From a virus: a stretch of 64,000 bases of DNA. The position numbers and the translations under genes are program-made. The notes under the pieces are model-generated. The model was not told where the DNA came from. It saw only the letters and a list, made by a program, of their open reading frames with translations, and ran no database searches. The stretch lies in the IMG/VR virus record IMGVR_UViG_3300009164_000038, positions 124,001-188,000 of that record; one strand, given 5' to 3'. Position 1 is the first letter of the stretch, and every line of letters starts with the position of its first letter. Positions 24,651-41,987 of the stretch are shown here, one piece after another.

Positions 24651-27600
24651 GTGTCTGCTATACTATCCAATCTTGATCTAGTTGTCAATCGTCTCACGAC
24701 GATAACTGTTGTACAAAGTGATTCCTCATTGGTCAAGACCACAGTGGGGCTCAATCTCAGTGAAACTAGCGTATTCACCCAAAGCAACATAAGATCAATA
24801 TCTACAACTCCGGTATTGGCGAATGTTATAACCACAATTGGGTATGCTGGTGCTAATATTGGTCAGTCAATTTACATTATAGATGATGATGTCACTAGCA
24901 TAACTGCCAACGCAAACAGTTTTGCAGTTACTAGTACTACATCAGTACTTGGTGGGGGATTAAATTACACATATGGTAACATAGTTTCAAACGTTAGTGC
25001 ATATGCAACAGTAACTTATACCACCCCCGGCACTTATACTTGGACTTGCCCTGAGGGTGTAACCAGTATAAGTATGGTAGGTGTGGGTGGTGGTGGGGGC
25101 GGCCAACAAAAAGCTGCCGGCGGCACTGGCGGCGCTGGAGGCTTAATTGATTACTATAATGCTTATGCAGTGACGCCTGGTACCAGTTATACCATTGTTG
25201 TGGGCGGGCGTGGCGGTCCGGGAACCAGTGCCGGTGATAACGGAGACGCAACGTATTTCATTGATGCAGCAGCAACTGCACCTGCAATATATGCAGCTGG
25301 AGGAACCGGCGGCGGCAATATGAATTGGTTAACCGGCGGTACCACCGGTAGTATTATTAATAGCACGTATTCTTCAATTGATACGTTTACTGCACAAGAC
25401 TCCAATGGTGGTACTATAACTTACAGTGTCGCTAATGGTCCAACCGGTTTAGTAATAAATTCATCCACTGGTGTATTGTCTTATACCCAACAAGTAAGTC
25501 CTTCCCTGTCTGATGGTTACCTTATTACAATTAATGCAACATCAACTAGTGGCAGTAGTATTGATAAATTTTATACATTGACATTCGCTGCTGAATCTTA
25601 TTTGTACTATCTATTAGTAGCCGGCGGTGGTGGCGCAGGCGCAGATGGCTCAGTATCTGCAGTCAGTCCGGGCACAGGAGGTGGTGGTGGTGTGGTGTTG
25701 GGATCAATTGGGATAACATCGTCCACTAGTGGAAACAGTTTAGTCACCATTGGGTCGGGCGGCAGCTTGGGCAGCAATGGTGGCAACACCAGTGCAATTG
25801 GCACATCAGTATTTGGTGACAATGGTGTAGTTGCCATTGGCGGCGGCGCAGGCGGCAGTGCATTAACCGGAGATTCTGGCCAGCCTGGCGGCAGCGGCGG
25901 CGGCGGCGGATACAGCCCTAGCGTGGTTAGTGGTGCTGGCGGCGCCGGATTGCAACCCAGTAGTACGTGGGGCGGTTACGGAACCGGAGGTGCAGCCGGA
26001 AATCAAGGTGGGTTTGGTGGCGGCAGTGGTGGAAGTAATTTAACTAGTTATGCCTTGGGTAGTTTGTTTTTTAATGGTACTAGCCAAACTCTTACATTTT
26101 CGGCACAAACTGCGCTTTCGTTTGGTACTGGAGATTTAACTATAGAGATGTGGGTATATCCTACCTCGTTTGCACCCGATGGTATATATGCAGGGTTAAT
26201 AGATGCAAGATCAGGATCTGGAAACACGTCGTGGAATGTTGGCTTATTTGTATCTGCAGGTAATATGTATGCTTACATGCAAATAATAGGAGCCACAGGA
26301 AATCCATCTGGTGCTACTATCATTCCATTAAACGCCTGGACACATATAGCTTGGACAAGACAAAGTTCTACATTTAAAATTTTTGTTAATGGTGTTATAG
26401 ACTACAATGCCAGTGAGACTCGTGCAATTGATGCCGGAGGTACTAGTCAAACAATAGGAAGACATAATGAAGCTGGTCGTTATTATCGTGGTTACCTCAC
26501 TAACATTCGTATAGTAAAAGGTACCGCAGTATATACCTCTGCGTTTTCTCCAACTGTACCGTTATCTAACATCACCAACACATCGTTACTGTTATTAGTC
26601 AACAGCGATGCCAATAAAATAACGGATTCAAGCGCAAGTCCAGTTACGCTAACCAACGTTGGCAGTGTAACTTACAGCAGTAGTGTAGTACCATCAGCAT
26701 CAAACACAGCAGGTACAACAGCATCGGGTAGCTTGGTGTTTAATGGTTCTAGTTATGTAAGTTATCCAACTAATGCTGCTTGGGCGTTCGGTGGAGGCAA
26801 TTTTACTGTTGAATGTTGGTTTTATCAAACTGCCTATCCTGGTACTAACCAAGGCGGCAGTTTAGTATACCTATGGCACTCGGGCCCCGGCCGATCATTT
26901 GCAATGTATGCTAGTTATAACGGTGTAGGCGGCATTGGTGCAAGCTGGAATACTTCTGGTGGCATGAGTGGTGGTCCTGCTACCAGTTTAAACACTTGGT
27001 ATCATGCGGCTTTTGTTAGAAACGGTGCTAGTTTTTATCTTTATTTAAACGGCGCACAAGTTGCTACCACCGCAGCGGTAACACTTGTAACAAGTTCTGA
27101 TCCACTGTTCATTGGTGCCAATAATGACGCATCAAACCCAACTTGGTTCTTTCGTGGATACATAACCAATGTTAGAATAGTCAAAGGCACTGCGGTATAC
27201 ACCAGTAGCTTTGCTCCAACAGTACCATTGGCGCTGGTTTCTGGTACATCACTATTGCTGACTGTTGCCAACAATACCAACAGAGCAGTTGACAGTAGCA
27301 GTAATAATTTTACCCCAACTATCAGTGGCGCAACCTTTAGCAGCACAGTGGTTCCTAGTACGGGCGCATCGGCTACCGCTGCTGGTGGTAGTTTTTACTT
27401 TAACGGTACCAATGCCACACTGACCTCGCCCGGTAATGCAGCATTTAATTTGACTGCTGATTTTACACTCGAAGCTTGGGTATACAAACAAGTTGCATCC
27501 AGTGTGTGTTTTATGAGCTGTCAGGCCGGCCCAAGCCCTGGCCGAGGTTGGATGATGTTTATAAACACAAATAACACATTGCAAATGGACTGGTCTATTG

Positions 27601-29066
27601 CTGGAAATGGTAATATCAAAAGTGGAGGCACTTTCACTAGTGCCGGCACAATCACACTAAATCAATGGTGTCATATAGCACTGGTAAGAAGTGGGTCAAC
27701 ATACACATTCTATATAAATGGCTCTCCAGCTGGTTCTGGTGCTATGAGTGGCGCAGTAAGGCTAGCAGGATCATTTGGCATTGGGTATACTCCAAACGAA
27801 ACTACCGCTGGAGTAGCTTGGTATCAAGGTTACATGACCAATATCAGGATCGTCAATGGCACAGCAGTATACAAGAGCACATTTACTCCTATACTGTTGA
27901 GTGCGGTTACCAACACATCGTTATTGTTATTGGTTAACAGTAGCGGATCATATTTGACCGATTCCAGCGTTAATAATCTCACTGTAACCAGTGTCAATGT
28001 CTCTTATAACGGTACCGTCGTCCCCACAGTAGCATCTAGTAGCGGGCCCATAGCAGTTAACATCCTGGGCAATGTCATTGCCAGATATTCAGATGGTGGA
28101 TATGCAGCCAATAGCAGTGTTAACTATGGTGGTGGCGGTGGCCGAGTTGGATATGGTGTTGCAGGCAATGCTGGAGTAGCTTACTTCTGGTATGCTGGCC
28201 TGCAACGCAGCACCGGTGGCGATTTAGTACAATCCGTTTCTTACAGCGGAACCAATTATTGGTTGCATAAATTTACTTCAACTAGTTATATTAATATGTT
28301 ACCACCGGCTACTTCAATAACTATAAACTACATGATTGTCGGTGGTGGCGGCGGTGGCGGATCTCCAGCTGATAACAGTGCAGGTGGTGGCGGAGCAGGC
28401 GGTTTAGTAACTGGCACTTTCATTGTACTTGCAAATTTAAACACTTTTGTAACAGTACAAGTTGGCACAGGCGGCGCCCCAAATGTTAATGGTACAAACA
28501 GTTCGGTTACTTGCACTTTAAGTAGTTTTAATAGAATTGCATTAGGTGGCGGCGCCGGTGGTGGCAGCAGTAGCATTTACGGCAGTAATGGGTCACCCGG
28601 GGGTTCAGGTGGCGGCGGCGGCGGCTCCAATGGTTCTGGGAGCCCAACGGGTGCAAGTGCGACTCAACCCGGATCTACTTCAGGCGGATATGGTTACAGT
28701 GGCGGCAATGGAAGTTACACAATAGGAGCAGGCGGTGGCGGTGGTGCAGGCGGCCCCGGAGGAAATGCAATTGCTGGCGGCGCAGCCGGTGCTGCAGGAC
28801 TGGGCTTACTAGTTACTACTCCGAGTGCAACATATACAAAAACTTACGCTGTTGGTGGCTCTTCGGGCGGAGGTGGCGGCACGGCAACTGCCAACACTGG
28901 TAATGGTGGTAACGGCCTTGGTACCGGGGGCAGCGGAGTTGCAATTTTTTGGTGGCCAGATATATATCCAGCCCCGTCTTCTATTACAGGATCTTATACA
29001 ACTGTTACAGAAAATGGATATAAAATATATGTGTGTACTGCTGGCAGTATTTCAATGACATTTTAA
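24651..29066 (+). CDS. LamG/glycine-rich adhesin with 3 LamG domains (1471 aa), GTG start
   Basis: GTG at 24651 follows AGGGTAG. N-terminal segment SAILSNLDLVVNRLTTITVV resembles that of the 526-aa protein at 33646. Then a glycine-rich block (about residues 140-225), an Ig-like/cadherin-like repeat (about 245-318, with YSVANGPTGLVINSSTGVLS), another glycine-rich block (321-465), LamG domains at about 470-637, 697-860 and 915-1080 each ending in GY(L/I/M)TN.RIV(K/N)GTAVY, and two large C-terminal glycine-rich blocks. Inference: receptor-binding tail fibre. The poly-Gly blocks resemble fibre-tip adhesins of T4-like phages, where such segments form the host-contact surface. Confidence 0.8.
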   Translation: MSAILSNLDLVVNRLTTITVVQSDSSLVKTTVGLNLSETSVFTQSNIRSISTTPVLANVITTIGYAGANIGQSIYIIDDDVTSITANANSFAVTSTTSVLGGGLNYTYGNIVSNVSAYATVTYTTPGTYTWTCPEGVTSISMVGVGGGGGGQQKAAGGTGGAGGLIDYYNAYAVTPGTSYTIVVGGRGGPGTSAGDNGDATYFIDAAATAPAIYAAGGTGGGNMNWLTGGTTGSIINSTYSSIDTFTAQDSNGGTITYSVANGPTGLVINSSTGVLSYTQQVSPSLSDGYLITINATSTSGSSIDKFYTLTFAAESYLYYLLVAGGGGAGADGSVSAVSPGTGGGGGVVLGSIGITSSTSGNSLVTIGSGGSLGSNGGNTSAIGTSVFGDNGVVAIGGGAGGSALTGDSGQPGGSGGGGGYSPSVVSGAGGAGLQPSSTWGGYGTGGAAGNQGGFGGGSGGSNLTSYALGSLFFNGTSQTLTFSAQTALSFGTGDLTIEMWVYPTSFAPDGIYAGLIDARSGSGNTSWNVGLFVSAGNMYAYMQIIGATGNPSGATIIPLNAWTHIAWTRQSSTFKIFVNGVIDYNASETRAIDAGGTSQTIGRHNEAGRYYRGYLTNIRIVKGTAVYTSAFSPTVPLSNITNTSLLLLVNSDANKITDSSASPVTLTNVGSVTYSSSVVPSASNTAGTTASGSLVFNGSSYVSYPTNAAWAFGGGNFTVECWFYQTAYPGTNQGGSLVYLWHSGPGRSFAMYASYNGVGGIGASWNTSGGMSGGPATSLNTWYHAAFVRNGASFYLYLNGAQVATTAAVTLVTSSDPLFIGANNDASNPTWFFRGYITNVRIVKGTAVYTSSFAPTVPLALVSGTSLLLTVANNTNRAVDSSSNNFTPTISGATFSSTVVPSTGASATAAGGSFYFNGTNATLTSPGNAAFNLTADFTLEAWVYKQVASSVCFMSCQAGPSPGRGWMMFINTNNTLQMDWSIAGNGNIKSGGTFTSAGTITLNQWCHIALVRSGSTYTFYINGSPAGSGAMSGAVRLAGSFGIGYTPNETTAGVAWYQGYMTNIRIVNGTAVYKSTFTPILLSAVTNTSLLLLVNSSGSYLTDSSVNNLTVTSVNVSYNGTVVPTVASSSGPIAVNILGNVIARYSDGGYAANSSVNYGGGGGRVGYGVAGNAGVAYFWYAGLQRSTGGDLVQSVSYSGTNYWLHKFTSTSYINMLPPATSITINYMIVGGGGGGGSPADNSAGGGGAGGLVTGTFIVLANLNTFVTVQVGTGGAPNVNGTNSSVTCTLSSFNRIALGGGAGGGSSSIYGSNGSPGGSGGGGGGSNGSGSPTGASATQPGSTSGGYGYSGGNGSYTIGAGGGGGAGGPGGNAIAGGAAGAAGLGLLVTTPSATYTKTYAVGGSSGGGGGTATANTGNGGNGLGTGGSGVAIFWWPDIYPAPSSITGSYTTVTENGYKIYVCTAGSISMTF

Positions 29067-29098: not shown

Positions 29099-29106
29099 GT
29101 TAAATA
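29099..29106 (+). promoter_or_regulatory. T4-late-like box GTTAAATA adjacent to start codon
   Basis: Ends 6 nt before the ATG at 29113, with no Shine-Dalgarno between. If it works as in T4, transcription would begin at about the start codon. Confidence 0.4.
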
Positions 29107-29112
29107 ACTAGT

Positions 29113-32100
29113 ATGACAATAAGTAGCTCATTTTCATCAAACGTCACAGTCGAAACACTGGTAGTAGCCGGCGGCGGTGGCGGCGGCACAAACTATAACC
29201 TGCGTGGCGCAGGTGGCGGAGCAGGGGGATTAGTTTACATTGGTAATCTACGGATACCAGCTGGATCCACAGCCAACGTCATAGTTGGCAGCGGCGGCAA
29301 TGTTTCGGCTCGCGGCGGCGATAGTGCTATACTGCCTTACGTGCCCACATACAGTCACTGGTTTAATGGTTATAGCACTTTTGATTATCTTACTGTTGCA
29401 ACCACAACATCTAATGTCACAACATCTGCAGCTGGCAGTTTGAGTTTCAGCGGAACCTCACAGTATTTGTCAATAACCGGAACTACTAGTGGTCCGCTTG
29501 ATCTGGCAGCAGGTGCAGGAAACTGGACAGTTGAGTTATGGGTGTATCCTCGGTCAGTGACAGGCGAACAAGTTTTCTTTTGGAAAGGTGGTACTACCAG
29601 TTCTTTCAACCCATCATATGCAGCATTCATGAGCGGATCTGGTGGACAATTTATTGTTGGTGATGGCGGCGCAGCAGGTGCCAACATTAACTTCCCATCT
29701 GGTACTTTTGCCATCAATACTTGGCATCATTTTGCTCTAGTACGCAGCGGAACCAACTTTACTGCATGGGTAAATGGCGCAGTAGCCGGTACTCCATTTA
29801 CTACGGCATTCACCATGAGTAATACTGATAACAACACATTGACTATAGGTAGTAGTGTTGCCGACGGCTCTACTAGATATTTTAATGGATTAATCACCAA
29901 TTTCCGTATTGTTAAAGGTACAGCAGTATATACCGCAGCCTTTAGTCCTCGGGTGCCGCTTGGCATTGTTACTGGTACATCATTATTGCTATCGGTTAAG
30001 AGTGATGCTAATAAACTAGTAGACGCTAGCGTTAATAACACTGTAGTAAACAATGTTAACGCAGCCACTTTTAGCACAACTGTACCATCGGTGGTATCGG
30101 CAGTTTACCCTCTAACATTCTTTTTCAATGACTTTACAGTAGAAGCATGGATCTATCTCAATGCTTATGGAGCCACCTACACCGGCATTGTTGATACCAG
30201 AACCGGCGCACTAGCTCAGCCTTGGGCGTTTGGACTTAACGGCACCAGCCTTGATTTCTTCTGGGGAACCGGCGCAACCACTAGAGCTACCAGTAGTATG
30301 CGTGTTCCAACCGGGCAGTGGACACATGTGGCGGCCACTCGACAAAATGGAAATGTTTATCTATACATAAACGGATATCAAGACGTTACCTCAGTGGCTG
30401 CGGCTAGTGGTGCCGGTGCCAACATTGCTCAAACCAGCAGTAGCATATGGATTGGTAATTTAAGAGATGGTGCTGCTACTGGACAGAACACATATTCGGC
30501 TAACGTTTACATTTCCAATTTGCGTACCGTAAATGGCACAGCAGTTTATACTGCCAACTTTACACCACAGACCACTAACTTGTCCAACATTGCAGGCACG
30601 ACAATGTTGACTTTGCAGAACAGCACATTAGTCGACAATGGTCCATATAACTTACCAATCGTAAAATATTACGGCAGCGTAAGTCCCAGCATATTTTCAC
30701 AGACCACACCGTCAACTGATGGATACGCCAGCGTCTACTTCAATGGTGCAACCCTGTTGCAGTACACCAACTCAACAGCACTGACTACAGTACCTGCTGT
30801 TGATACCAGTGTTAATCAATTTACCGTGACCAGTACAGCATCAATACCAAACGTGATTGCAACAGCACCTGCAATTACACCATTGGGCACTGTAAACAGT
30901 ATAAGTTTTGCTGGTAGCCAATATTTAACGGTAACAGCAAACGCCGCCTTTGCATATGGCACTGGTAGTTTTACTGTTGAGTGTTGGGTTTATATAACTA
31001 CAGCTTTGGTTGCTGGTGCGTTTGTTGGTCCATGGACTGGTACCGCAGCAACCAGCTCTTGGGTTTTTACACAAGGCAGTCCTACTGCTACTAATTTAAG
31101 ATTCGGTGTTTCAGATGGAACAACAGCAACATTTTATCAAGGCGGTGGGGGATTATCCATAAACACATGGATACATGTAGCTGCGGTTAGAAATGGTACT
31201 ACACTGACATTGTATTCCAATGGCACATCAGTATCCACAAACGCTGGTATTTCTACAAACATATCAGTCGCATCACAGGCACTACAAATTAACGGTATCG
31301 CAGGAGCAACTTTTTTAACAACTGGTTACATATCCAATCTACGTATAGTCAAAGGTGCAGCAGTCTACACTGGCAATTTTACAGTACCCACTGCCCCATT
31401 AACTATTACTCAAAGTTCCAGTGGCGCAAATATAGCAGCCATTACGGGCTCACAAACCAGCCTGTTACTGCAACCCGTTGCTGGATGGACAGCAGAATGT
31501 TGGGTCAATCCTTCGGGTGACTATAGTACTTATAGGACCGTATTTGCCAAACGTGTAAATGCCACAGCCACTACCGAATATGAGGGTTACCTGCGATTGA
31601 CCAGTGGTGTTATCAGTTTCTATAACGGAACCAATTACGAAAGCACAACAACATTAACTGCCAACACCTGGAGCCACTGTGCCTGGGTTTACACTGGAAC
31701 CAATATTGTTATCTATGTAAACGGGACGCAAGTATACACAAGCGCAGTCACTATCACCACCAATACTGAACCCATGATTATTGGCGGTGTTAGGACCGGT
31801 AGTGAATATTTTCTTGGATATTTAAGTAACTTCCGTTTTACCAGAGGAATGGTATATACCGGCGCATTTACTCCACCCACTAGACCATTTGCCGCAACTC
31901 AAACTGTGTCGGGAAACATTGCTGCTATCACTGGCAATATAGATAATAGAACTAATCTACTAGTACTACAAAGCAGCACCTACAAAGACAACAGTGCGAA
32001 CAACTATCTATACGGTTACACATACACCATCAACACCGGCACGCCATTAATCAAAACCGATGTTGTACCATTTATAGACCCCGTCCGCGGCGTAATTGCC

Positions 32101-33630
32101 TATGGTGGTGGTGGGGGTGGATTTAACGATTCTACACCCAACGCTAACTCGGGTGGCAGCGGCGGTGCCAGCTGGTATCCTGGTTACACAGCCTTATCTT
32201 CGAGTCAGCCTACTACCAGCTACTACAACGGTACGGCTTATACCAATACCGGCTTTGGCAACACAGGCGGTGTTGGTGGCGCAGTTCAACCCTATGGTGG
32301 AGGTGGTGGTGGCGCAGGCGGTGCGGGTGACAGTGTCTCTGTGGGTACTGCCAATGGTGGAATAGGTCGCCAATACACGATAAGTGGCGTACCCACATAC
32401 TATGCAGGCGGCGGCAGCAGTGCTGGCTACCCACTCAATGCAGGGTATCTATTGAGTTCGGGTGGCCTAGGCGGCGGCGGCCAGGGCGACAACAGTGTAT
32501 GGGCAGCAACACAAGTTACAGGATACACAGGCAGCACTGGTACTGTTAACGCAACTGCCAATGGCTCGCCATATACCGGCGGCGGCGGCGGCTCGGGTGG
32601 TTGGGGTGGTTCGGGCATAGTCATCATGCGCTATCTAGGCACACAAATAGCCACCGGCGGTACAGTAACATCAATCGGCGGATATACCATACACACATTT
32701 ACCACAGCAGGAACATTTACTATAGCTGCTAATATCTCAATTGGCAGTGCAGGCGGCAACGGTGGACCTTACGCCGGCGGAGGTGGTGGTGCAGCAGGTT
32801 ACCTGGGCTTTGGCGGTAACGGCGCAGCGGGTTCGTCGCTAGCAGCTGGCAGCTACGGCATCGGCGGTGGTGGGGGAGGTGGTGGCTCTAGTGCAACATT
32901 TGGCGGAGGTGGTGGCGGAGTAGACATTTGGGGCCCAGGTGGATATTCTGGTGCAGGAGGCGCAGCAGGTCAACCCGGCACCGGTGGTGGTCCAGAAGTT
33001 ACGCTTGGCCTAACTGGTAATGGAGCACAGCCCGGATTTGGCAGCAATGGCGGACTCTACGGTGGTGGAGGTGGTGGAGGCGTTACTAGTTCACTGGATA
33101 CCTCACGTGGATGGGGAGCAAATGGTGCATTTGCGCTGGTATATTCAACTACATCTAGCACCTATACATATCCATACATCAGTCCACTTAATCTAGTCTA
33201 CCTTGGCAATCTACAATCTACAAATACCACTGCAATTGGATCAAACGTAGACGTGATTGTGCTTGATAACACCATTGATCAACAAGTATACAATACATTA
33301 GGGTACGGACCAACAAACGCAAACTCAAATGTCATCTACGAGTATCCAACAAATAACAACACCGCTTTAGTCACTATAGCCCGAGCACCTGTGGATGGAA
33401 ATAACATAGTAGGTTCAACAGACATCAACATAACTGTTAACTATCAAGCAGAATGGATGTTGCGTAACAGTGACCCAGCGTTTCCGGCTACTTACGATAA
33501 ACCGTTTAATTATCAATATGCACAACCAATAACCACTACCAATGATCCAAGGAAGCTGACATTAAAGGCTACATATATCACTAAAACTGGTACCCAGGAT
33601 GATTCAACTGAGCCCGATCAGTACTTATAA
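29113..33630 (+). CDS. LamG/glycine-rich adhesin with 4 LamG domains (1505 aa)
   Basis: N-terminal glycine-rich block (about residues 15-75), LamG-like domains at about 107-280, 334-486, 594-760 and 787-923 (the second and fourth are degenerate but keep YISNLR.VNGTAVYT and GYLSNFRF), then very glycine-rich blocks (about 990-1175 and 1210-1345), and a distinct C-terminal domain (about 1350-1505). That C-terminus (EWMLRNSDPAFPATYDKP...NDPRKLTLKATYI) is shared with the next gene (EFMLVNSDKNFVASNVNP...NDPRLASIKTGFI), so the two proteins have a common module, perhaps for attachment or trimerisation. No Shine-Dalgarno precedes the ATG. Inference: tail adhesin. Confidence 0.8.
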   Translation: MTISSSFSSNVTVETLVVAGGGGGGTNYNLRGAGGGAGGLVYIGNLRIPAGSTANVIVGSGGNVSARGGDSAILPYVPTYSHWFNGYSTFDYLTVATTTSNVTTSAAGSLSFSGTSQYLSITGTTSGPLDLAAGAGNWTVELWVYPRSVTGEQVFFWKGGTTSSFNPSYAAFMSGSGGQFIVGDGGAAGANINFPSGTFAINTWHHFALVRSGTNFTAWVNGAVAGTPFTTAFTMSNTDNNTLTIGSSVADGSTRYFNGLITNFRIVKGTAVYTAAFSPRVPLGIVTGTSLLLSVKSDANKLVDASVNNTVVNNVNAATFSTTVPSVVSAVYPLTFFFNDFTVEAWIYLNAYGATYTGIVDTRTGALAQPWAFGLNGTSLDFFWGTGATTRATSSMRVPTGQWTHVAATRQNGNVYLYINGYQDVTSVAAASGAGANIAQTSSSIWIGNLRDGAATGQNTYSANVYISNLRTVNGTAVYTANFTPQTTNLSNIAGTTMLTLQNSTLVDNGPYNLPIVKYYGSVSPSIFSQTTPSTDGYASVYFNGATLLQYTNSTALTTVPAVDTSVNQFTVTSTASIPNVIATAPAITPLGTVNSISFAGSQYLTVTANAAFAYGTGSFTVECWVYITTALVAGAFVGPWTGTAATSSWVFTQGSPTATNLRFGVSDGTTATFYQGGGGLSINTWIHVAAVRNGTTLTLYSNGTSVSTNAGISTNISVASQALQINGIAGATFLTTGYISNLRIVKGAAVYTGNFTVPTAPLTITQSSSGANIAAITGSQTSLLLQPVAGWTAECWVNPSGDYSTYRTVFAKRVNATATTEYEGYLRLTSGVISFYNGTNYESTTTLTANTWSHCAWVYTGTNIVIYVNGTQVYTSAVTITTNTEPMIIGGVRTGSEYFLGYLSNFRFTRGMVYTGAFTPPTRPFAATQTVSGNIAAITGNIDNRTNLLVLQSSTYKDNSANNYLYGYTYTINTGTPLIKTDVVPFIDPVRGVIAYGGGGGGFNDSTPNANSGGSGGASWYPGYTALSSSQPTTSYYNGTAYTNTGFGNTGGVGGAVQPYGGGGGGAGGAGDSVSVGTANGGIGRQYTISGVPTYYAGGGSSAGYPLNAGYLLSSGGLGGGGQGDNSVWAATQVTGYTGSTGTVNATANGSPYTGGGGGSGGWGGSGIVIMRYLGTQIATGGTVTSIGGYTIHTFTTAGTFTIAANISIGSAGGNGGPYAGGGGGAAGYLGFGGNGAAGSSLAAGSYGIGGGGGGGGSSATFGGGGGGVDIWGPGGYSGAGGAAGQPGTGGGPEVTLGLTGNGAQPGFGSNGGLYGGGGGGGVTSSLDTSRGWGANGAFALVYSTTSSTYTYPYISPLNLVYLGNLQSTNTTAIGSNVDVIVLDNTIDQQVYNTLGYGPTNANSNVIYEYPTNNNTALVTIARAPVDGNNIVGSTDINITVNYQAEWMLRNSDPAFPATYDKPFNYQYAQPITTTNDPRKLTLKATYITKTGTQDDSTEPDQYL

Positions 33631-33645: not shown

Positions 33646-35226
33646 ATGTCGTTTAGTCAAATAACTTCTGTAGATCTAATAGTAAATCAAATTGTTACTA
33701 TTGTTACCAAGTATGATCCATCGTCTATAGCTGGCATTAATACAGCAGGCGACATAGTGCCGCTTGAGACTGTTATAAAAACCAGTAGCAATGTAGGAGT
33801 AGGGCAAAGATATACTAGATCTGAATTAGCTAACGTAATACAAACCGCAGATTCAGTTAGCCGTTTTGGTAATACTACGTTTGCCTATAGCAATCAGGCC
33901 AACGCTATCAGTACGCCTCTGCTACCAGCATTAGAATTAACTAACAATAATGTTGGTGGCCAGGCTGTTATTGCAGGCGCAGGATTAGCCAGCGGTAGTG
34001 TGCTACTTAACGGTACTACTCAATCACTGACAGCAAATACAGCAGCTACATGGACTTACCTACATAATGGGTTGCAGGATTATACAATAGAATGTTGGTA
34101 CTATAGCAGAGCAACAACATATCAAAATCTATTAGGCACCAGTGGAGTAACTACATCCATTGGATTTGAGTTGTCAATAAACAATCCCACAGTGGGCGCA
34201 GTGACAGTAGTTTATACCAGAGGTGTATCAACTAATAACACATGGACTTATGCTAATAGTGCTGTTGCCACCGGGGGCTGGTATCATGTAGCAACAACTT
34301 TTGCCAGCAGTACAAAAAGATCAAATATTTATGTAAATGGTAACCTGGCAGGTACTGCTGCTAACGTAGCATTTGCTTATAGCGCATCTGCACCAACAAA
34401 CACATTGGGTATTGGGTTTACAACGGCCACCGGTCAATTTAACGGTCAAATAACTAATGTGCGTATAACTAAATCTATTGTATATACCGCAAACTTTACA
34501 CCAACAATACCATTGACTAATATCAGCAATACACAATTATTATTGCAGTTTAATTCCAGTGGTGCGTTGTTAACTGATTCAAGTTCTAACAATAATACTA
34601 TTACCAACGTTGGGGTGGCAACATACTCTACTATAGTACCACCACTTACATCCACTGTAGCCGCAGTAAACAATTATTACAATTACTCGCGATTGTATTT
34701 CAACGGTGGATTGAATATACCCTACGGAGATATTACATCAAATGTACTAGCATCTGGCAGCCCAGTCAATACCTATACAAATCCAACCGGTGCCATGCTG
34801 AATCCAAATGCTAGCATACTAACTACTGGCACAGCATCTAAATCTGGCGTATATGACATACCTGTTTCAGTTACAGTAATTAGTCCTATCAATTACATAA
34901 CTCCGCAATCTACGCTTAATCAACGGGTAGCTTATGAGTTTAGCAATCCGACAGTATCGAGTTCTCGATATTTTGTTGCAAATGGTGCTAATGTAAATTC
35001 GGTAACAAATATTAATCCAAATATTATTATAGTTAATGCACAGCCTGAATTTATGTTAGTTAATTCGGATAAAAACTTTGTGGCCAGTAATGTTAATCCA
35101 ACCAATTACCAAACGATTGAAGCGGTAACCCCTGCAAACGATCCTAGACTAGCATCAATTAAAACTGGATTCATTGTTAAAGGTCAAACGGGAACTAATC
35201 CGTATAATCCACAAAACGTTTATTAA
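33646..35226 (+). CDS. LamG adhesin with one LamG domain (526 aa)
   Basis: N-terminal segment SVDLIVNQIVTIVTKYD is like that of the 1471-aa adhesin; one LamG domain lies at about residues 116-289 (WYHVATTF...NGQITNVRITKSIVYTANFTP); the C-terminal domain is shared with the 1505-aa adhesin. It therefore looks like a minimal version of the larger neighbours, with N- and C-modules flanking a single lectin-like domain. No Shine-Dalgarno precedes the ATG. Inference: tail adhesin, last gene of the 35 kb adhesin locus. Confidence 0.8.
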   Translation: MSFSQITSVDLIVNQIVTIVTKYDPSSIAGINTAGDIVPLETVIKTSSNVGVGQRYTRSELANVIQTADSVSRFGNTTFAYSNQANAISTPLLPALELTNNNVGGQAVIAGAGLASGSVLLNGTTQSLTANTAATWTYLHNGLQDYTIECWYYSRATTYQNLLGTSGVTTSIGFELSINNPTVGAVTVVYTRGVSTNNTWTYANSAVATGGWYHVATTFASSTKRSNIYVNGNLAGTAANVAFAYSASAPTNTLGIGFTTATGQFNGQITNVRITKSIVYTANFTPTIPLTNISNTQLLLQFNSSGALLTDSSSNNNTITNVGVATYSTIVPPLTSTVAAVNNYYNYSRLYFNGGLNIPYGDITSNVLASGSPVNTYTNPTGAMLNPNASILTTGTASKSGVYDIPVSVTVISPINYITPQSTLNQRVAYEFSNPTVSSSRYFVANGANVNSVTNINPNIIIVNAQPEFMLVNSDKNFVASNVNPTNYQTIEAVTPANDPRLASIKTGFIVKGQTGTNPYNPQNVY

Positions 35227-35256
35227 AGGTTTATTTTTTGCAGCAATGAGTGTATA

Positions 35257-35264
35257 CTTAAATA
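35257..35264 (+). promoter_or_regulatory. T4-late-like box CTTAAATA adjacent to start codon
   Basis: Ends 4 nt before the ATG of the glycosyltransferase gene, without a Shine-Dalgarno. Confidence 0.4.
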
Positions 35265-35268
35265 CACT

Positions 35269-38200
35269 ATGAAAATTGCTATTATTGATATCATCGGTCT
35301 ACCATACGATGGAACTACTGTGTTTAAACAAGGTCTCGGTGGATCTGAAAGTGCTGTAACCTTTATGGCACGGGAACTAGCACAAATTGGATTTGATGTT
35401 ACGGTATTTAATAATTGTAACATAGATCAATCACAAGCCGGTGTGTATGATTTAGTTACATACTGTCCGCTCACTGATCTAGCTTTAGAGCATTCATTTG
35501 ATATTGTTATTAGTAGTCGAACTGTGATTCCGTTTGTGGATTCGATTGATTACCACAAATTGCAAGATAATAGAGCATTTGCATTACAACCATATAACTT
35601 ATACCAGAGAATCCTAGCTCAAGCAAAGATGCGCATATTGTGGATGCACGATACTTTTTGTTTAGGTGATAACCTAATAGAAGAATTAGTAGTATCCAAT
35701 CGCATCACAGATATATTTACACTCAGTGACTTTCACTTAACCTATGTAGCCAATTGTAATCATGGTCGTAGAAGAAACTTTGAAGTATTAAAGCGTAAAC
35801 TGTTTATAACACGCAATGGTGCCAATTGTTATGTACCCGAAGTGGATATTGCTGCTAAAGATCGAAACCTATTTGTTTATAATGCCAGTGTAACTAAAGG
35901 TATGATACCATTAGTGAATGAAATTTGGCCTAGAGTTAAAGCGCAGATTCCAGAAGCTAGATTAAAAATAATCGGTGGTTATTATAGATTCAGTTCAGCA
36001 TCAGAACCAGACGCACAAGAACAAGATTGGCGACGAATGGTTGCTGATCCTAAGTATACCAATTGGGGAATAGAATTTTTAGGAGTGATACCGCAACAAC
36101 AAATCGGATCAATCCTGGCGCAATCAAACTTTATGATATACCCTTGCGCATTTCCAGAAACGTTTGGTATATCTATATTAGAAAGTTTATTGTACAATAC
36201 CCCGGTTATCACCTGTAGATTTGGTGCAGCAGAAGAAGTAGCACTTGAAGGTGCCAGCTACTTAATTGATTATCCAATTGAACCTAATAGTTTATTTCCT
36301 GATGTCAACACAGCACAGCAAATTGATCAATTTGTGGCAATGACTGTAAGAGCCTACAATGATACATACCTGCATCAACAAAAACAATATTATTGTAACA
36401 TTATAAAACCTTTAGCTGGTTGGGATACTGTAGCATTGCAATGGAAACAACTCTTTTTTCATCGAGCCGGCAAGTACTTGTCGAGGCAACAATATCAACA
36501 AGTAACAAAAATAAATCGACAAGTTCATAAAGTTTGGCAGCGTAGATATCATAACTCGATTGAATTAGAAAATTATAAAACTGGAGCAGAGCAAGAAATA
36601 ATTATTGTAAGCACGTTTTATAATTGTCAAGATTATATAGCACGTTGTATTGAAAGTGTAGCTGCACAAGATTATGATAACTATCAACATATTTTAATTG
36701 ATGATAAATCAACCGACAATACAGTTGAGGTTGTACTTGCTACTATAGATGCATTGCCCGAATACTTACGCAACCGTTTTGATATAGTATCAAATAACGA
36801 ACGCTTAGGTGCAGTATATAATCAAGTTGCATCTATTAGAGAAATAGAGAATCCTAATGCTATAGTAATGATACTCGACGGCGACGATAGTCTAATCAAT
36901 GATAATACTATATTCAATTATTACAATGCCATATACGACGGCTCAACTGAATTTACATATGGATCATGCTGGAGTATGGTTGATACTATACCGTTGATCA
37001 GCCAGCCATACCCAGAGTCTGTCAAACAAGCCAAATCATATAGACAACATCATTTCAATTGGATATTACCGTACACGCATTTACGAACGTTTAGGAAATA
37101 TCTTATTGAGGACATTCCAGATAGTAATTTCCAAGATAGTACTGGTAAATGGTTCAAAGCCGGCGGCGATGGATCTACTTTTTATAGTCTAATAGAAGCA
37201 GCAGATCCTGCACAAGTAAAATGTTTACAACAAATAGTTTATAATTACAATGATGCCAATCCATTAAATGATTATAAAGTGAATAGCAAGGAACAAACTG
37301 CTACAGCAAATGCTATTATTAACAAAAAAAGTGAATCATATATGATACCAGATATAAAGAAATATTCTATTGTAGTGCCTACTATGTGGAGATTAAAAGA
37401 ACAATTTGTTTCTTTTATTAATCAGCTATGTTCACATCCTGCTGTGGATGAGATTATTATTATTGATAATGACAATACACAAACACCTCGGTTGTTGCAT
37501 GAAAAAATAAAAATAAAAGATTTTGGTAAAAACATTTATGTTAATCCTGCGTGGAATGTTGGTTTAGAAATTAGTCGTAACGAACGTATATGCATTGTCA
37601 ATGATGATGTGCTGTTTGATATGAGTTTATTTGAAAAATTACAAGATTTAATTACTCCGGATGTAGGCGTATTTGGGTTATCTCCGGGGGTATCAGATTT
37701 TAATCAGCCTCTGTACGTCGATGGCACCATTGATATTATTCCTTGGACTAACCAACACACATACGGATTTGGATGTTTAATGTTTATGCACAAAGATTCA
37801 TGGCAACCAATACCAGAGGGATTGCAAATATATTATGGTGACAATTATATATTTGATTTGCAATTGAGTCGTAATAAAACTAATTATCTAATAACAAATG
37901 TAATATTTCATACACCATTTGCTGTAACTACATCTGATACTAGTATCACAGGCGGATTTCTAGATAAAGAGACTATAGTGTATCAACAAGTTAACCCATT
38001 AACAAATAAAAATACCATGCCTATTCCAAATAAGAAAAGAATTTTAATAGCTATACCAACAGCCAAATACATAGAGCCAGAGACATTTAAAAGCATATAT
38101 GATTTAATTGTTCCAGATGATTGCGAAGTAACATTCCAATACTTTTTTGGATATCGTGTAGATCAAGTACGCAATCTAATAGCAGATTGGGTAGTTACTG

Positions 38201-38628
38201 GATTTGATTATTTGTTTAGTGTTGATAGTGATATATCGTTTGAAAAAAACACACTACAAAAATTATTAGCACATGACAAAGATATAGTCTCTGGATTATA
38301 TATACAACGTATTCCTGGTACACAAACAGTGGAAATTTACGAACACAATCAATTTGGTGGCGTTGTAAACATTCCGTATGATAGATTAAAAAATCAAGGT
38401 TTAGTAAGTATTGCCAGTTGTGGATTTGGCTGTGTATTAGTTAAGAAACAAGTATTTCAACACGTTGGATACCCGCAATTTGAATATCATCCAGCCATTA
38501 GTCACAGTAATACAATTTCTGAAGATGTTGATTTTTGTAAAAAAGCATTAGCTAAAGGATTCGGCATCTTTGCTGATACTTCTATTTTATGTAATCATAT
38601 TGGTAGTTACAACTTTGAAATTAAATAA
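35269..38628 (+). CDS. Four-module glycosyltransferase (1119 aa)
   Basis: Module 1 (about 1-420) is GT4/GT-B-like: GLGGSESAVTFMARELA near the N-terminus and PETFGISILES with an E-x7-E pair at E297/E305. Module 2 (about 440-690) is GT2/GT-A: STFYNCQDYIARCIESV, DDKSTDNT and the metal motif LDGDD. Module 3 (about 695-925) is a diverged GT2-like fold with VVPTMWR and VNDDVLFD. Module 4 (about 922-1119) is another GT-A-like domain with SVDSDISF. No signal peptide or transmembrane segment, so it is cytosolic. The stop overlaps the start of the first FkbM gene (TAATG). Inference: builds a glycan of several sugars, on virion adhesins or on a host envelope precursor. Fusion of four modules is unusual in a phage. 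Confidence 0.85.
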   Translation: MKIAIIDIIGLPYDGTTVFKQGLGGSESAVTFMARELAQIGFDVTVFNNCNIDQSQAGVYDLVTYCPLTDLALEHSFDIVISSRTVIPFVDSIDYHKLQDNRAFALQPYNLYQRILAQAKMRILWMHDTFCLGDNLIEELVVSNRITDIFTLSDFHLTYVANCNHGRRRNFEVLKRKLFITRNGANCYVPEVDIAAKDRNLFVYNASVTKGMIPLVNEIWPRVKAQIPEARLKIIGGYYRFSSASEPDAQEQDWRRMVADPKYTNWGIEFLGVIPQQQIGSILAQSNFMIYPCAFPETFGISILESLLYNTPVITCRFGAAEEVALEGASYLIDYPIEPNSLFPDVNTAQQIDQFVAMTVRAYNDTYLHQQKQYYCNIIKPLAGWDTVALQWKQLFFHRAGKYLSRQQYQQVTKINRQVHKVWQRRYHNSIELENYKTGAEQEIIIVSTFYNCQDYIARCIESVAAQDYDNYQHILIDDKSTDNTVEVVLATIDALPEYLRNRFDIVSNNERLGAVYNQVASIREIENPNAIVMILDGDDSLINDNTIFNYYNAIYDGSTEFTYGSCWSMVDTIPLISQPYPESVKQAKSYRQHHFNWILPYTHLRTFRKYLIEDIPDSNFQDSTGKWFKAGGDGSTFYSLIEAADPAQVKCLQQIVYNYNDANPLNDYKVNSKEQTATANAIINKKSESYMIPDIKKYSIVVPTMWRLKEQFVSFINQLCSHPAVDEIIIIDNDNTQTPRLLHEKIKIKDFGKNIYVNPAWNVGLEISRNERICIVNDDVLFDMSLFEKLQDLITPDVGVFGLSPGVSDFNQPLYVDGTIDIIPWTNQHTYGFGCLMFMHKDSWQPIPEGLQIYYGDNYIFDLQLSRNKTNYLITNVIFHTPFAVTTSDTSITGGFLDKETIVYQQVNPLTNKNTMPIPNKKRILIAIPTAKYIEPETFKSIYDLIVPDDCEVTFQYFFGYRVDQVRNLIADWVVTGFDYLFSVDSDISFEKNTLQKLLAHDKDIVSGLYIQRIPGTQTVEIYEHNQFGGVVNIPYDRLKNQGLVSIASCGFGCVLVKKQVFQHVGYPQFEYHPAISHSNTISEDVDFCKKALAKGFGIFADTSILCNHIGSYNFEIK

Positions 38629-39320
38629 TGACTACATTAGAAGAAAAACAAACTCATCTTCGAGAGTTAGGAAATCAAAGGCCTATCCCTAGGAATCATA
38701 TTATGTATCTCATGCATCTGCAACGAGAATATAATTTTAATCCTACAGTTGTTTATGATGTTGGTGCATGTGTATTGCATTGGACAAACGAAGCTCGACT
38801 AATATGGCCTACTACAGATTTTGTAGCTTTTGAAGCAATGGATGCAAGTGAATTTCTATTCAAAGAACAAGGGTTAAAATATAATATTGGAGTATGCAGC
38901 GATGTTAGCGGAAAAGAAGTTGATTTTTATCAAAACGATTATCATCCTGGCGGCAACAGCTACTACAAAGAAAACCCAGAAATATTGGCTGCAATTAACT
39001 ACACTGAAGTGTTCAATGAATCACATCGTCGCAGATTAACTACTGTTACATTAGATGATGTTAGACGTCAAAAGTCTTTTCCTATGCCACAGTTAATTAA
39101 GATGGATGTTCAGGGTGCAGAACTGGACGTACTCAAAGGTGCAGTTGAAACATTACAATCAGTTGAGCATGTTATATTAGAATTGCAAATTGTTGAATAT
39201 AACAAAGGTGCACCTTTAAGGGATACTGTAATTGAATACATGAACAGCATTGGATTTGAATGCATGGGACTGTTTAGTAACAATGGCCCAGACGGTGACT
39301 ACCACTTTGTTAAACGATAA
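38628..39320 (+). CDS. FkbM-family SAM-dependent methyltransferase 1 (230 aa)
   Basis: SAM-binding motif I VYDVGAC at about residues 41-47 and the FkbM hallmark LIKMDVQGAELDVLKGA at about 158-174. FkbM enzymes typically O-methylate sugars or small molecules. Start and stop overlap both neighbours by one base (TAATG), so the glycosyltransferase and the two methyltransferases are translationally coupled. Inference: methylates a sugar of the glycan built by the upstream enzyme. Alternative substrates cannot be excluded. Confidence 0.85.
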   Translation: MTTLEEKQTHLRELGNQRPIPRNHIMYLMHLQREYNFNPTVVYDVGACVLHWTNEARLIWPTTDFVAFEAMDASEFLFKEQGLKYNIGVCSDVSGKEVDFYQNDYHPGGNSYYKENPEILAAINYTEVFNESHRRRLTTVTLDDVRRQKSFPMPQLIKMDVQGAELDVLKGAVETLQSVEHVILELQIVEYNKGAPLRDTVIEYMNSIGFECMGLFSNNGPDGDYHFVKR

Positions 39321-39982
39321 TGTATATTCGAGATCAGCTTGTTGACAATATAGGTCCATGGACTGTTGATGATATCAGTCCCGGTGAAGGGACCTGGGAT
39401 AATATAGTACAAGGCTGGTATGAGATACGCGGCAATCTAAATAAAGTATCAAAATCTTTTGGTACAGTTGTGCAAGCCGGCGGGCATCAAGGATTGTACC
39501 CTAGATGTTTAAGTGAAATATTCAAAGAGGTTTATACATTTGAACCACACCCTATAAATTTTATTTGTCTATCTGCTAATTGTACTAAAGATAATATACA
39601 TAAATTTGATTCTGCATTAGGAAAACAATCTGGCATAATTATACTAGAAGAAGTAGGTACTACAGGACAGCATAGGATATGGGATAAAACAATTAATAGG
39701 CCTGTTTATCCTCTGCCCGTACAGCAGCATATATCGGTTTCTGTCACAACAATAGATTCTTTACAATTAAAAGAATGTTCTTTAATATTATTAGATGTTG
39801 AAGGGTATGAGCTTGAAGTATTAACTGGGGCGGTTAATACAATCAATCAATACCATCCTGGAATAATTGTAGAGCGTAGTTTTTTTGATTCGACTACAGC
39901 AAGAGTTTATGAATGGTTACGTGCTCATGGTTATTTATTAGTACACCGTACAAAAATGGATAGTTATTATTTACCCAAATGA
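39320..39982 (+). CDS. FkbM-family SAM-dependent methyltransferase 2 (220 aa)
   Basis: SAM motif region VVQAGGHQGLYPRCLSEIF with YTFEPHP downstream, and the FkbM hallmark ILLDVEGYELEVLTGA. It diverges strongly from the preceding FkbM protein, so the pair is not a recent tandem duplication. The start overlaps the upstream stop by one base. It ends 17 bases from the convergent Nudix gene; no terminator is visible between them. Inference: a second sugar O-methyltransferase with different position or substrate specificity. Confidence 0.85.
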   Translation: MYIRDQLVDNIGPWTVDDISPGEGTWDNIVQGWYEIRGNLNKVSKSFGTVVQAGGHQGLYPRCLSEIFKEVYTFEPHPINFICLSANCTKDNIHKFDSALGKQSGIIILEEVGTTGQHRIWDKTINRPVYPLPVQQHISVSVTTIDSLQLKECSLILLDVEGYELEVLTGAVNTINQYHPGIIVERSFFDSTTARVYEWLRAHGYLLVHRTKMDSYYLPK

Positions 39983-39999: not shown

Positions 40000-40476
40000 T
40001 TAACAATTTAATTGTGCTATCTGAATTTTTTTATAAATCTCTTCAGAATTAAATGTTCTGTAAAGTCCTGGATGCATTGGTTTGGGCACTGCACCCAAAG
40101 GAACCCATGCATATCCTAAATGTTCGTTGTTGAGTTTAGGTACAAATTCAAAATCAACTGCAATAAAAAAAGTGTGATATACAAATCGTTCGTTGCTACT
40201 AGTGAACATTTCTATAGGTATAAACTTTGGATCGAGTATTTCTCCATCGAGTTCTTCCCTAATTTCTCTCATTAATGCTTTCGATGAATTCTCATCGAAA
40301 TCAATTTTACCACCGGCAAGTCCCCACGTCAGTGGCCAGCTGCCCGATGCTCTGAGTAGGAATAAATATCGTTGGCTATTTTTAGCGTAAATTAGCGCAC
40401 CAACTCCTTCGGTTACGGACGAGGGATGACTCTCCAGGCCCCTGACCCGTAGCGGCCTTCTACTGATTTTGTCCAT
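40000..40476 (-). CDS. Nudix hydrolase (158 aa)
   Basis: Nudix box GKIDFDENSSKALMREIREE fits G-x5-E-x7-R-E-U-x-E-E; the following glycine position is Asp. Nudix enzymes hydrolyse nucleoside diphosphates linked to another moiety. ATG at 40476 (MDKISRRPL) is preferred over an ATG five codons upstream because GGAAAG sits 9 nt before it and the upstream ATG has no ribosome site. Either start overlaps the end of the gp15 gene in another frame (about 64 bp here), so translation probably couples to gp15. Substrate unknown; nucleotide-pool or NDP-sugar/ADP-ribose clean-up are plausible. Next to the glycan cassette, NDP-sugar hydrolysis is tempting but unproven. Confidence 0.85.
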   Translation of the reverse strand: MDKISRRPLRVRGLESHPSSVTEGVGALIYAKNSQRYLFLLRASGSWPLTWGLAGGKIDFDENSSKALMREIREELDGEILDPKFIPIEMFTSSNERFVYHTFFIAVDFEFVPKLNNEHLGYAWVPLGAVPKPMHPGLYRTFNSEEIYKKIQIAQLNC

Positions 40477-41987
40477 TGTTGATCTTTCCATTTGTATTGA
40501 GTATTTGTTCTTAAATTAGTTATGTATTCCACTGCGGTATTTGCTAGGCATTCGAATACTACATTCCATTGACCATTGGAAAATTCAATTATATCATTTG
40601 ATTTTGCAACTAAAAATGGTTTGTTAGGCTTATTCCATGCAATTGCGCCTTCGCTGTCGCCCGGAGATCCTATGTCGTTTAAGATTAAAAATCTGGTACC
40701 AGACTCTGGATTTAATATATCCGAGTCAACAACTACACTTCTTGGATCAATTATAGCATCAACTGGTGATAATGTATTAGCCGGTAGTGTATCGACGATT
40801 GGAGTAAAAAGTAGCAAACTTTCGTCTGTTGGATGATGTGAAACAGTACCAACAATAGTAGCATTATCTTGCTCAAGTATAACTCGACTTATGCCATTAG
40901 TTAATCCGCCGTAGTTTCTAAACAATAGCACCCAACTATATTCGTTTGCATACGAATTGCCGCCGGGTGTAAAGGTAGCCGGCAAATCTATTTTAAAGCT
41001 ACTTTCTTGAACTGATTTTATTAGTCTCAGCGTATTTCCAAGATAGAGAATATTAATTCCAACAGGAGTATACACAGACTTAGCCATTAGATCCCCGGGG
41101 CTATATGCATTACCACCTTCGTCTCCAACTGACCCACTTGCAGCAAATGCAGAATTGCCTGCTCGAATACCGGCAATAGATGCAGGATTACCTGCTTGAA
41201 TACCAGCAACAGAGTTTACATTAGGAGTGCCATAACCACCATTACCGGCACCGCCGCCAATTATGCCACCACCCGGCCGATTAAGTTCATGCGTAATATC
41301 AGTAGTATCCCATGTACTACTAATAAAGCGTTGAATAACCCCCATGTTTTTAACTTTAGCCGGAGGAGAAATCCAAACCGGTAATTCAAATGTCATTGTA
41401 CCTATATCAATTGGATCTTCTGTACCAGTGGGAACAACTCTACTAGAAAAGTTAACATCTGTTAATGTGATATAACTCAAACTAGTCCAATCAATATAAT
41501 TATCAGAGCTTTGTATATCTAAACTTGGATTAAACAGCACAGCAATTTGCTCAAATAGTTGTAATTTCTGATCTGTATTACTAGTCCAAATATCGCATTT
41601 TATAGTTAGCAAATACGGGACTGGCATTATTCTTTCCACAGTCAACGGATTACCTGCTGCAGAGGTTTGGTTTCCCTGTGGATCTACTGCACGTTCGGTT
41701 ACTTGTACTTTACTTACATGGAATGGTTCCTGCATCCTTTTTTGGTCGTAACGGAATCCTGTTATATAAATTGACATAGCAGGAACAGTGGGTAACGCAT
41801 TTTCACTATTGTTGCGTAATATGCTCGAGGCTTGTCTACTACTGTCTCCGTAGTAAATAGGAACCTGTAAAAGATGCACGTTCCCATCTCTATCTTTTCC
41901 GAGCGAGACTTGGAAATTGCTAAGTATTCTTACAAATTGTTGTAAGAATCGACGTATCTGTCCTGAGTAAAAATATGTATTGTTCAT
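40413..41987 (-). CDS. gp15: Tail sheath stabiliser / tail completion protein, gp15-like (524 aa)
   Basis: The N-terminal 240 residues match the T4 gp15 pattern: YFYSGQIRRFLQQFVRILSNFQV, LLQVPIYYGD, a central beta strand region, LLTIKCDIWTSNTDQKLQLFEQI and FELPVWISPP. T4 gp15 is 272 aa; here a glycine/alanine linker (about 245-300, with GIQAGN and GIRAGN repeats) leads to an added C-terminal region of about 220 residues (NTLSPVDAIIDP; NGQWNVVFE; YKWKDQQWTK) that I associate with gp15 of marine T4-like phages. Role in the family: caps the tail tube and sheath and joins the head. Only 1 nt separates it from the upstream gp14 stop, a conserved T4 gene pair. Confidence 0.8.
   Translation of the reverse strand: MNNTYFYSGQIRRFLQQFVRILSNFQVSLGKDRDGNVHLLQVPIYYGDSSRQASSILRNNSENALPTVPAMSIYITGFRYDQKRMQEPFHVSKVQVTERAVDPQGNQTSAAGNPLTVERIMPVPYLLTIKCDIWTSNTDQKLQLFEQIAVLFNPSLDIQSSDNYIDWTSLSYITLTDVNFSSRVVPTGTEDPIDIGTMTFELPVWISPPAKVKNMGVIQRFISSTWDTTDITHELNRPGGGIIGGGAGNGGYGTPNVNSVAGIQAGNPASIAGIRAGNSAFAASGSVGDEGGNAYSPGDLMAKSVYTPVGINILYLGNTLRLIKSVQESSFKIDLPATFTPGGNSYANEYSWVLLFRNYGGLTNGISRVILEQDNATIVGTVSHHPTDESLLLFTPIVDTLPANTLSPVDAIIDPRSVVVDSDILNPESGTRFLILNDIGSPGDSEGAIAWNKPNKPFLVAKSNDIIEFSNGQWNVVFECLANTAVEYITNLRTNTQYKWKDQQWTKSVEGRYGSGAWRVIPRP

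Follow-up and report, generated by a model that had tools for sequence, protein, structure and literature searches.

Several glycosyltransferase (GT) domains joined to a C-terminal methyltransferase (MT) in one chain are known from chlorovirus PBCV-1 (A064R with A061L, and A111/114R). A064R contains two GT domains and one MT in 638 aa, the second MT A061L finishes the same terminal sugar, and the glycan is placed on the virus's own protein (PMC9614988). Here we describe a phage cassette of a four-module GT and two FkbM methyltransferases (MT1 and MT2), located at positions 35269 to 39982 of a 64,000-nucleotide stretch (the window; bases 124,001-188,000 of the 199,181-base IMG/VR virus record IMGVR_UViG_3300009164_000038). 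On balance, we favour the view that it is a cytosolic single-chain assembly line, which would furnish the phage's tail adhesins or fibres with an O-methylated glycan. A064R differs in that it belongs to an algal virus and acts in the N-glycosylation of a capsid protein, whereas the phage enzyme has its GT4 module first and is encoded behind adhesins. A064R did not turn up in the fold and sequence matches listed for the phage enzyme, and no direct comparison of the two was made.

In streptococci, a GT cluster (gtf1/2, gtf3, dGT1, galT2 and gly) is likewise dedicated to one adhesin, Fap1, to which sugars are added stepwise (PMC5207161). However, these genes are separate and bacterial, export occurs via the accessory Sec system and no methyltransferase is named in the cluster. 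By analogy, the GT4, GT-A, methyltransferase order of the phage cassette resembles this stepwise adhesin glycosylation. The autotransporter heptosyltransferases TibC and AAH also glycosylate adhesins, using ADP-heptose as donor (PMC4358343), a sugar that the phage enzyme may use as well. They differ in being dodecameric and in having an iron finger, and no TibC-type heptosyltransferase domain was found in the cassette among Pfam, PHROG, NCBIfam and PDB matches. In pelagimyophages and cyanomyophages, the host recognition cluster occupies the corresponding genome place, the tail-fibre region by the neck genes, and carries GT and rfaE genes. Its GTs have been read as changing the host lipopolysaccharide (LPS) (PMC7029224), which differs from a role on the phage's own adhesins. 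Mycobacteriophages provide another case of self-modification, with phage GTs acting on virion proteins. To our knowledge, no assembly-line fusion takes part in this mycobacteriophage virion glycosylation. The modified sites are the C-termini of capsid and tail-tube proteins (Freeman et al. 2023, as cited in PMC12619734). Virion glycosylation is thus far documented for few phages. A first-pass annotation of the window, made by a model from the sequence alone, had stated that no system with exactly this make-up was known. As far as we found, this holds for the phage enzyme, but its parts have counterparts in A064R with A061L, in the streptococcal islands and in the marine T4-like clusters.

The cassette and the genes that follow it are arranged as follows:

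35269..38628, + strand: multi-module glycosyltransferase, 1119 aa (open reading frame (ORF), Pfam, PHROG, structure model)
35269..36468, + strand: module 1, GT4, GT-B fold, EX7E = E297/E305 (Pfam, motif conservation, fold search)
36574..37308, + strand: module 2, GT2-type GT-A, DGDD at residues 537-540 (Pfam, motif conservation, solved-protein matches)
37324..38013, + strand: module 3, GT2-type GT-A, NDD at residues 778-780 (Pfam, motif conservation)
38014..38625, + strand: module 4, GT-A fold, phrog_1574, VDSD at 985-988 and ED at 1085-1086 (PHROG, structure model, STIV A197 similarity)
38628..39320, + strand: FkbM methyltransferase MT1, TAATG overlap with the GT gene (Pfam, TIGR01444, sequence)
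39320..39982, + strand: FkbM methyltransferase MT2, TAATG overlap with MT1 (Pfam, TIGR01444, sequence)
40000..40491, - strand: Nudix hydrolase, convergent, marking the end of the island (context; Pfam, PHROG)
40413..41987, - strand: T4 gp15-like tail sheath stabiliser (context; Pfam, PHROG)

One protein indeed joins a GT4 module and three GT-A/GT2-type modules, as had been proposed. In the 1119-aa protein, Pfam detected the C-terminal half of GT4 at residues 208-334 (Glycos_transf_1/Glyco_trans_1_4) and two Glycos_transf_2 stretches at residues 446-608 and about 700-801, all above cut-off. Residues 978-1117 match phrog_1574, a family without known function, and module 4 was assigned as a glycosyltransferase via this match and its GT-A fold only. 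A recognisable motif had been read in each module; EX7E, DGDD, NDD and VDxD are all present and almost always conserved. Both methyltransferases belong to the FkbM family, with 54 (MT1) and 66.7 (MT2) bits against TIGR01444 (cut-off 37.7), 57 and 63.8 bits against PF05050 (cut-off 22.7), and E-values of 3.6e-15 and 2.8e-17 against Methyltransf_21 in Pfam. No segment reaches the hydrophobicity expected of a membrane helix, and no flippase, polymerase or lipid-carrier gene was recognised beside the cassette.

Scanning IMG/VR with the 1119-aa protein, we found 79 viral loci with close relatives, and a scan with an alignment of 31 representatives gave 411 viral stretches encoding relatives. The phage of the window is an uncultured large tailed phage, and many of its relatives likewise come from metagenomes of water and sediment. 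In 84,980 bacterial and archaeal species, 129 pattern matches were obtained, none of which was a relative. None of 50,697 phage records matched 80% of the query at one place; mostly single modules were matched, and the fused GT4-GT-A-FkbM enzyme was not found there. A 99% identical protein is present in UniProt (A0A6J5T3W3) under a generic domain name only. Judged from these sequences, the cassette represents a conserved, modular GT-MT enzyme family that is apparently virus-only and tied to adhesin genes. The enzyme family is undescribed so far, whereas the type of locus is already known. In this family, a single locus joins a multi-step GT-MT enzyme, adhesins and sometimes heptose donor genes across hundreds of environmental viral contigs.

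When relatives were grouped at 90% identity (65 non-redundant groups), MT1 was fused to the GT chain in 44, which corresponds to 44 of the 54 with an assignable 3′ side; these share the A064R-type architecture, with GTs and MT in one chain, and the window has TAATG coupling instead. Module 3 is present in 26 of the fused forms and missing from 18; nearly half of the relatives lack it. MT1 is separate in one group, and nine have no adjoining MT1. This fusion is evidence that methylation and glycosylation act jointly. The earlier claim that the GT is translationally coupled to two FkbM methyltransferases stands for the window, where the TAATG overlap occurs twice, but separate GT, MT1 and MT2 genes are a minority state and MT2 lies next to the cassette in few relatives (L034 and L142). 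Locus L130 carries an extra inserted stretch that by eye reads as another methyltransferase, and L110/L111 have a separate downstream ORF related to module 3; both suggest that modules get exchanged. MT2 was also considered as an indicator of adhesins and was rejected. In Ochrobactrum phage OC, Stenotrophomonas phage DLP6 and Sinorhizobium phage phiM12, its relatives lie among metabolism and hypothetical genes away from fibres, so that MT2 alone is uninformative on adhesins.

The catalytic residues are strongly conserved. Each site of E297, E305, DGDD, VDxD and the FkbM motifs deviates in no more than one or two of the up to 79 sequences covering it, and the NDD of module 3 is kept in all 33 covering relatives. 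Per module, dN/dS was 0.03-0.14 against L004, the nearest non-identical relative, more distant pairs being largely saturated. Catalytic motifs and modules are under purifying selection and do not reflect chance. The search for relatives lacking adhesin neighbours or having broken active sites, which the first-pass annotation had named as the genomic part of its own refutation, did not overturn the proposal.

Directly upstream of the cassette, we found three adhesin genes:

24651..29066, + strand: LamG-containing adhesin ORF, 1471 aa (Laminin_G_3; own-genome matches at 150076-151860, corresponding to window 26076-27860)
29113..33630, + strand: LamG adhesin, 1505 aa, four Laminin_G_3 stretches (Pfam E 4.2e-63)
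33646..35226, + strand: LamG adhesin directly 5′ of the cassette, 526 aa, 36% Ser/Thr/Asn (S/T/N) (Pfam, composition)

The S/T/N-rich adhesins reported in front of the cassette are thus confirmed, with an S/T/N content of 31-36% in the three ORFs, a range that is not adhesin-specific since several further tail proteins in this stretch are likewise S/T/N-rich. The own genome has 26 LamG domains within 107-158 kb, and the cassette follows directly after the last, with the LamG array on one side and the gp15-like, neck and adaptor genes on the other. This position of glycan genes between tail-fibre and neck genes is that of the host recognition cluster of T4-like marine phages. We then looked for the same neighbourhood elsewhere, as had been suggested, in 51 non-redundant loci with DNA upstream and for 418 control genes from other viral loci. 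An ORF was counted as adhesin-like if it was a LamG relative, or was 250 aa or longer with an S/T/N content of 26% or a Gly content of 18%, which is a partly compositional criterion. Such an ORF was located immediately upstream in 36/51 loci (controls 12/418) and within four genes in 47/51 (controls 27/418). With Pfam only, 32 immediate upstream proteins contained Laminin_G_3 in 12 cases, Gly_rich_2 in 11 and collagen repeats in one; some of the remaining proteins were short or cut at contig ends. The downstream context varies by lineage (Nudix-gp15-neck, nuclease, ADP-heptose genes, others), which makes the upstream adhesin link more than simple shared synteny. Furthermore, two 2OG-Fe(II) oxygenase-like genes, the first without a Pfam match, directly precede the GT-MT enzyme in L062, L064, L065 and L077, and in L077 the pair follows a collagen-repeat fibre that bears an S74 chaperone domain. 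The arrangement of oxygenases and GT-MT after a collagen-repeat fibre recalls collagen hydroxylation and glycosylation. In addition, the C-terminal ~100-120 aa are common to the adhesins at 33646-35226 and 29113-33630 and the LamG adhesins of relatives.

The folds of the modules were examined with a structure model of residues 685-1119 (mean pLDDT 86). Foldseek against the PDB returned human LH3, mimivirus R699, chondroitin and heparosan synthases and ColGalT1 as GT-A matches; heparosan synthase and K4CP, both multi-GT-A polysaccharide synthases, were within the top fold matches. For the two C-terminal GT modules, the likeness to human LH3 and mimivirus R699 is one of tandem GT-A pairs that superpose poorly over their whole length (rmsd about 20), so that these matches support the fold of each unit and no shared function. 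For module 4, STIV A197 of an archaeal virus was the best single-domain fold match (TM-score 0.66 on target) and the sole sequence-level solved relative, matched weakly by a GTC-GTD profile over this module. The full-length model (pLDDT 79) gave GT-B matches including MshA, BshA and PimA. Among solved proteins, module 2 has TagF, GalT1 (5hea) and K4CP as sequence relatives, of which GalT1 belongs to streptococcal adhesin (Fap1) glycosylation.

Genes for a possible donor accompany the enzyme in part of the family. ADP-heptose genes adjoin the cassette in L010, L011, L026, L055-L059, L115, L128 and L133, those of L115 and L133 being divergent. The best matches of the ADP-heptose genes are TIGR02199, TIGR02198 and TIGR02197, with all scores below the curated equivalog cut-offs. 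A heptose-kinase scan gave 165 viral stretches, and in the 79 loci that were read we found an adenylyltransferase in 75, a cupin in 68 and an epimerase in 59. In P-SSM2 and S-CAM3, two cultured cyanophages, the heptose module stands between tail-fibre genes, and in S-CAM3 this is directly before the neck genes and gp15. What viruses use heptose-making enzymes for has been stated as unsolved (PMC11573728; PMC11461863), and these cultured phages make the question testable. An HldC-HldA-cupin-(HAD)-HldD module is widespread (L155-L233), often without a GT cassette, and several copies stand beside Nudix-gp15 genes. The own genome contains a second glycan cluster at about 189.3-194.9 kb (L092:1275-6914), right of the window and about 26-31 kb past the cassette, with a GT9, a weak divergent GT9-like gene, a third FkbM, another methyltransferase and a GT4.

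Upstream of the cassette start, two signals were observed:

35230..35258, + strand: weak sigma70-like promoter TTTATT-17-TATACT, 10 nt 5′ of the ATG (consensus match only)
35258..35264, + strand: TTAAATA box, 4 nt 5′ of the cassette start (sequence)

The late-type box that had been assigned to the cassette is doubtful. T4-type ATAAATA is present before other window genes but not before this one, which has TTAAATA instead, and many relatives carry TTGACA-16/17-TATAAT in this place. With at most one mismatch, this promoter was found at 14/30 cassette starts (window included) versus 22/621 other genes, a TATAAT no more than 25 nt from the start at 19/30 versus 20/621, and a Shine-Dalgarno core at 0/30 versus 208/621. 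The enzyme may, judging from these signals, be made from a near-leaderless message off its own promoter. A perfect TTGACA/TATAAT with the -10 only 5-11 nt from the ATG and without Shine-Dalgarno occurs in L010, L012, L013, L019, L031, L032, L034, L035, L042 and L046. TTAAATA precedes the ATG by 4-6 nt at window positions 29100, 33635 and 35258 (adhesins 29113 and 33646, and the cassette), without a clear Shine-Dalgarno, and possibly is an unusual promoter or start signal. The sigma70 promoter was rejected as proof of early expression: the gene at 43242, which adjoins neck and adaptor genes, also has a perfect one.

What the sequences show directly is how the genes are built and joined, their catalytic motifs, the purifying selection on them, their neighbours and, in relatives, the linkage to donor genes; from this we infer activity, acceptor, order of transfer, sugars and benefit. 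The GT4 module would put the first sugar on an adhesin Ser/Thr in the cytoplasm, two or three GT-A modules would then lengthen the chain, and the FkbM unit would cap it by O-methylating a sugar, MT2 of the window phage probably adding another methyl group. Donors would be host nucleotide sugars and, in several relatives, also ADP-heptose from the adjoining phage module. The glycan may shield the adhesins or tune their binding. That a glycan-building and O-methylating cassette is tied to adhesins, as first proposed, is well supported by motifs, fusion, neighbourhood and heptose donor genes. The first-pass annotation left both the virion and the host surface as acceptor; we lean towards the phage's own adhesins, the host surface being the less probable of the two. 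We favour the own adhesins because the upstream adhesin is constant despite a changing downstream context, because some lineages have oxygenase-like genes or a collagen-repeat fibre upstream and the two C-terminal GT modules have an LH3/R699-like fold (with its poor superposition), because module 2 is related to GalT1 and module 4 to STIV A197, because the enzyme has no membrane segment and no flippase or polymerase gene was recognised alongside, and because ADP-heptose genes stand beside the cassette in several lineages and between the fibre genes of cyanophages.

Several points weigh against glycosylation of the own adhesins. The adhesin neighbourhood would equally be expected if the enzyme altered the receptor that those adhesins recognise, and the sigma70-type promoter of many relatives may mean expression earlier than that of the adhesins. 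The cassette's GT modules were within reach in only 10 of the 79 heptose-kinase loci, which makes the heptose donor module general in phages and not cassette-specific, and no heptose kinase or adenylyltransferase match was found in the window's own 199 kb record, which may be incomplete. Finally, a glycan on these virions is a prediction. A fuller version of the proposal is tentative: a widespread virus-only one-chain line could make an O-methylated, sometimes heptose-containing O-glycan on adhesins without a lipid carrier, with units swapped (third GT, extra methyltransferase) for glycan diversity and phage ADP-heptose genes at least partly feeding it.

Alternatively, the cassette could act on the envelope of the infected host, changing its LPS core, O-chain or capsule so as to block superinfection by phages that share the receptor or binding of progeny to debris, and travel with the receptor-binding genes to match them; we regard this as possible, at a lower probability. 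The glycosyltransferases and rfaE of the pelagimyophage host recognition cluster were interpreted by the authors as host-surface change (PMC7029224), ADP-heptose is an LPS core donor, and both the sigma70-type promoter and the adhesin neighbourhood fit this role too. The own genome also holds a GT9 (heptosyltransferase family) gene at about 190.0-190.9 kb of the record, outside the window, but it is not part of the cassette. Against this role, the enzyme is soluble, no lipid-carrier, flippase or polymerase gene accompanies it among those recognised, and the oxygenases upstream in some lineages are of a protein-modifying type and occur with a collagen-repeat fibre. Marine Synechococcus LPS is without heptose in the two strains studied (PMC4515613) although its phages carry the heptose module, which makes an LPS-core use of the cyanophage module unlikely there.

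Another target (phage DNA, a capsid or other virion protein, a small molecule or an exopolysaccharide) is unlikely. Phage glycosyltransferases do act on DNA, capsid and tail tube (PMC12619734), and heparosan synthase and K4CP are top fold matches, but the constant neighbours are adhesins or fibres, and an exported polymer would require transport genes, none of which were seen. T4-type DNA glucosylation was rejected, as no thymidylate-synthase-fold gene (PF00303, which would include dCMP hydroxymethylase) was matched in the 199 kb record, a possibly incomplete one, with TET/JBP-type routes outside this test. That the modules are no longer enzymes and form a sugar-binding structural tail protein, as the location within the tail-fibre region might suggest, is highly improbable given the nearly invariant catalytic residues, the fused or coupled methyltransferase with intact motif and the linkage to donor-making genes.

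Among other observations, ORF 54839-56773, taken as a terminase for assigning a host, proved not to be one and returned no match. A 237-aa ORF without a Pfam match follows directly after the fused enzyme at L021:4774-5487. A QueC-like gene lies between the cassette and the Nudix gene at L014:9740-10345, and also in L017 and L030. In the own genome, a QueE-like gene (L086:8222-9088) and a ThyX-like gene (L086:18515-19198) were seen by eye within 28.2-39.2 kb, a hint of 7-deazaguanine metabolism.

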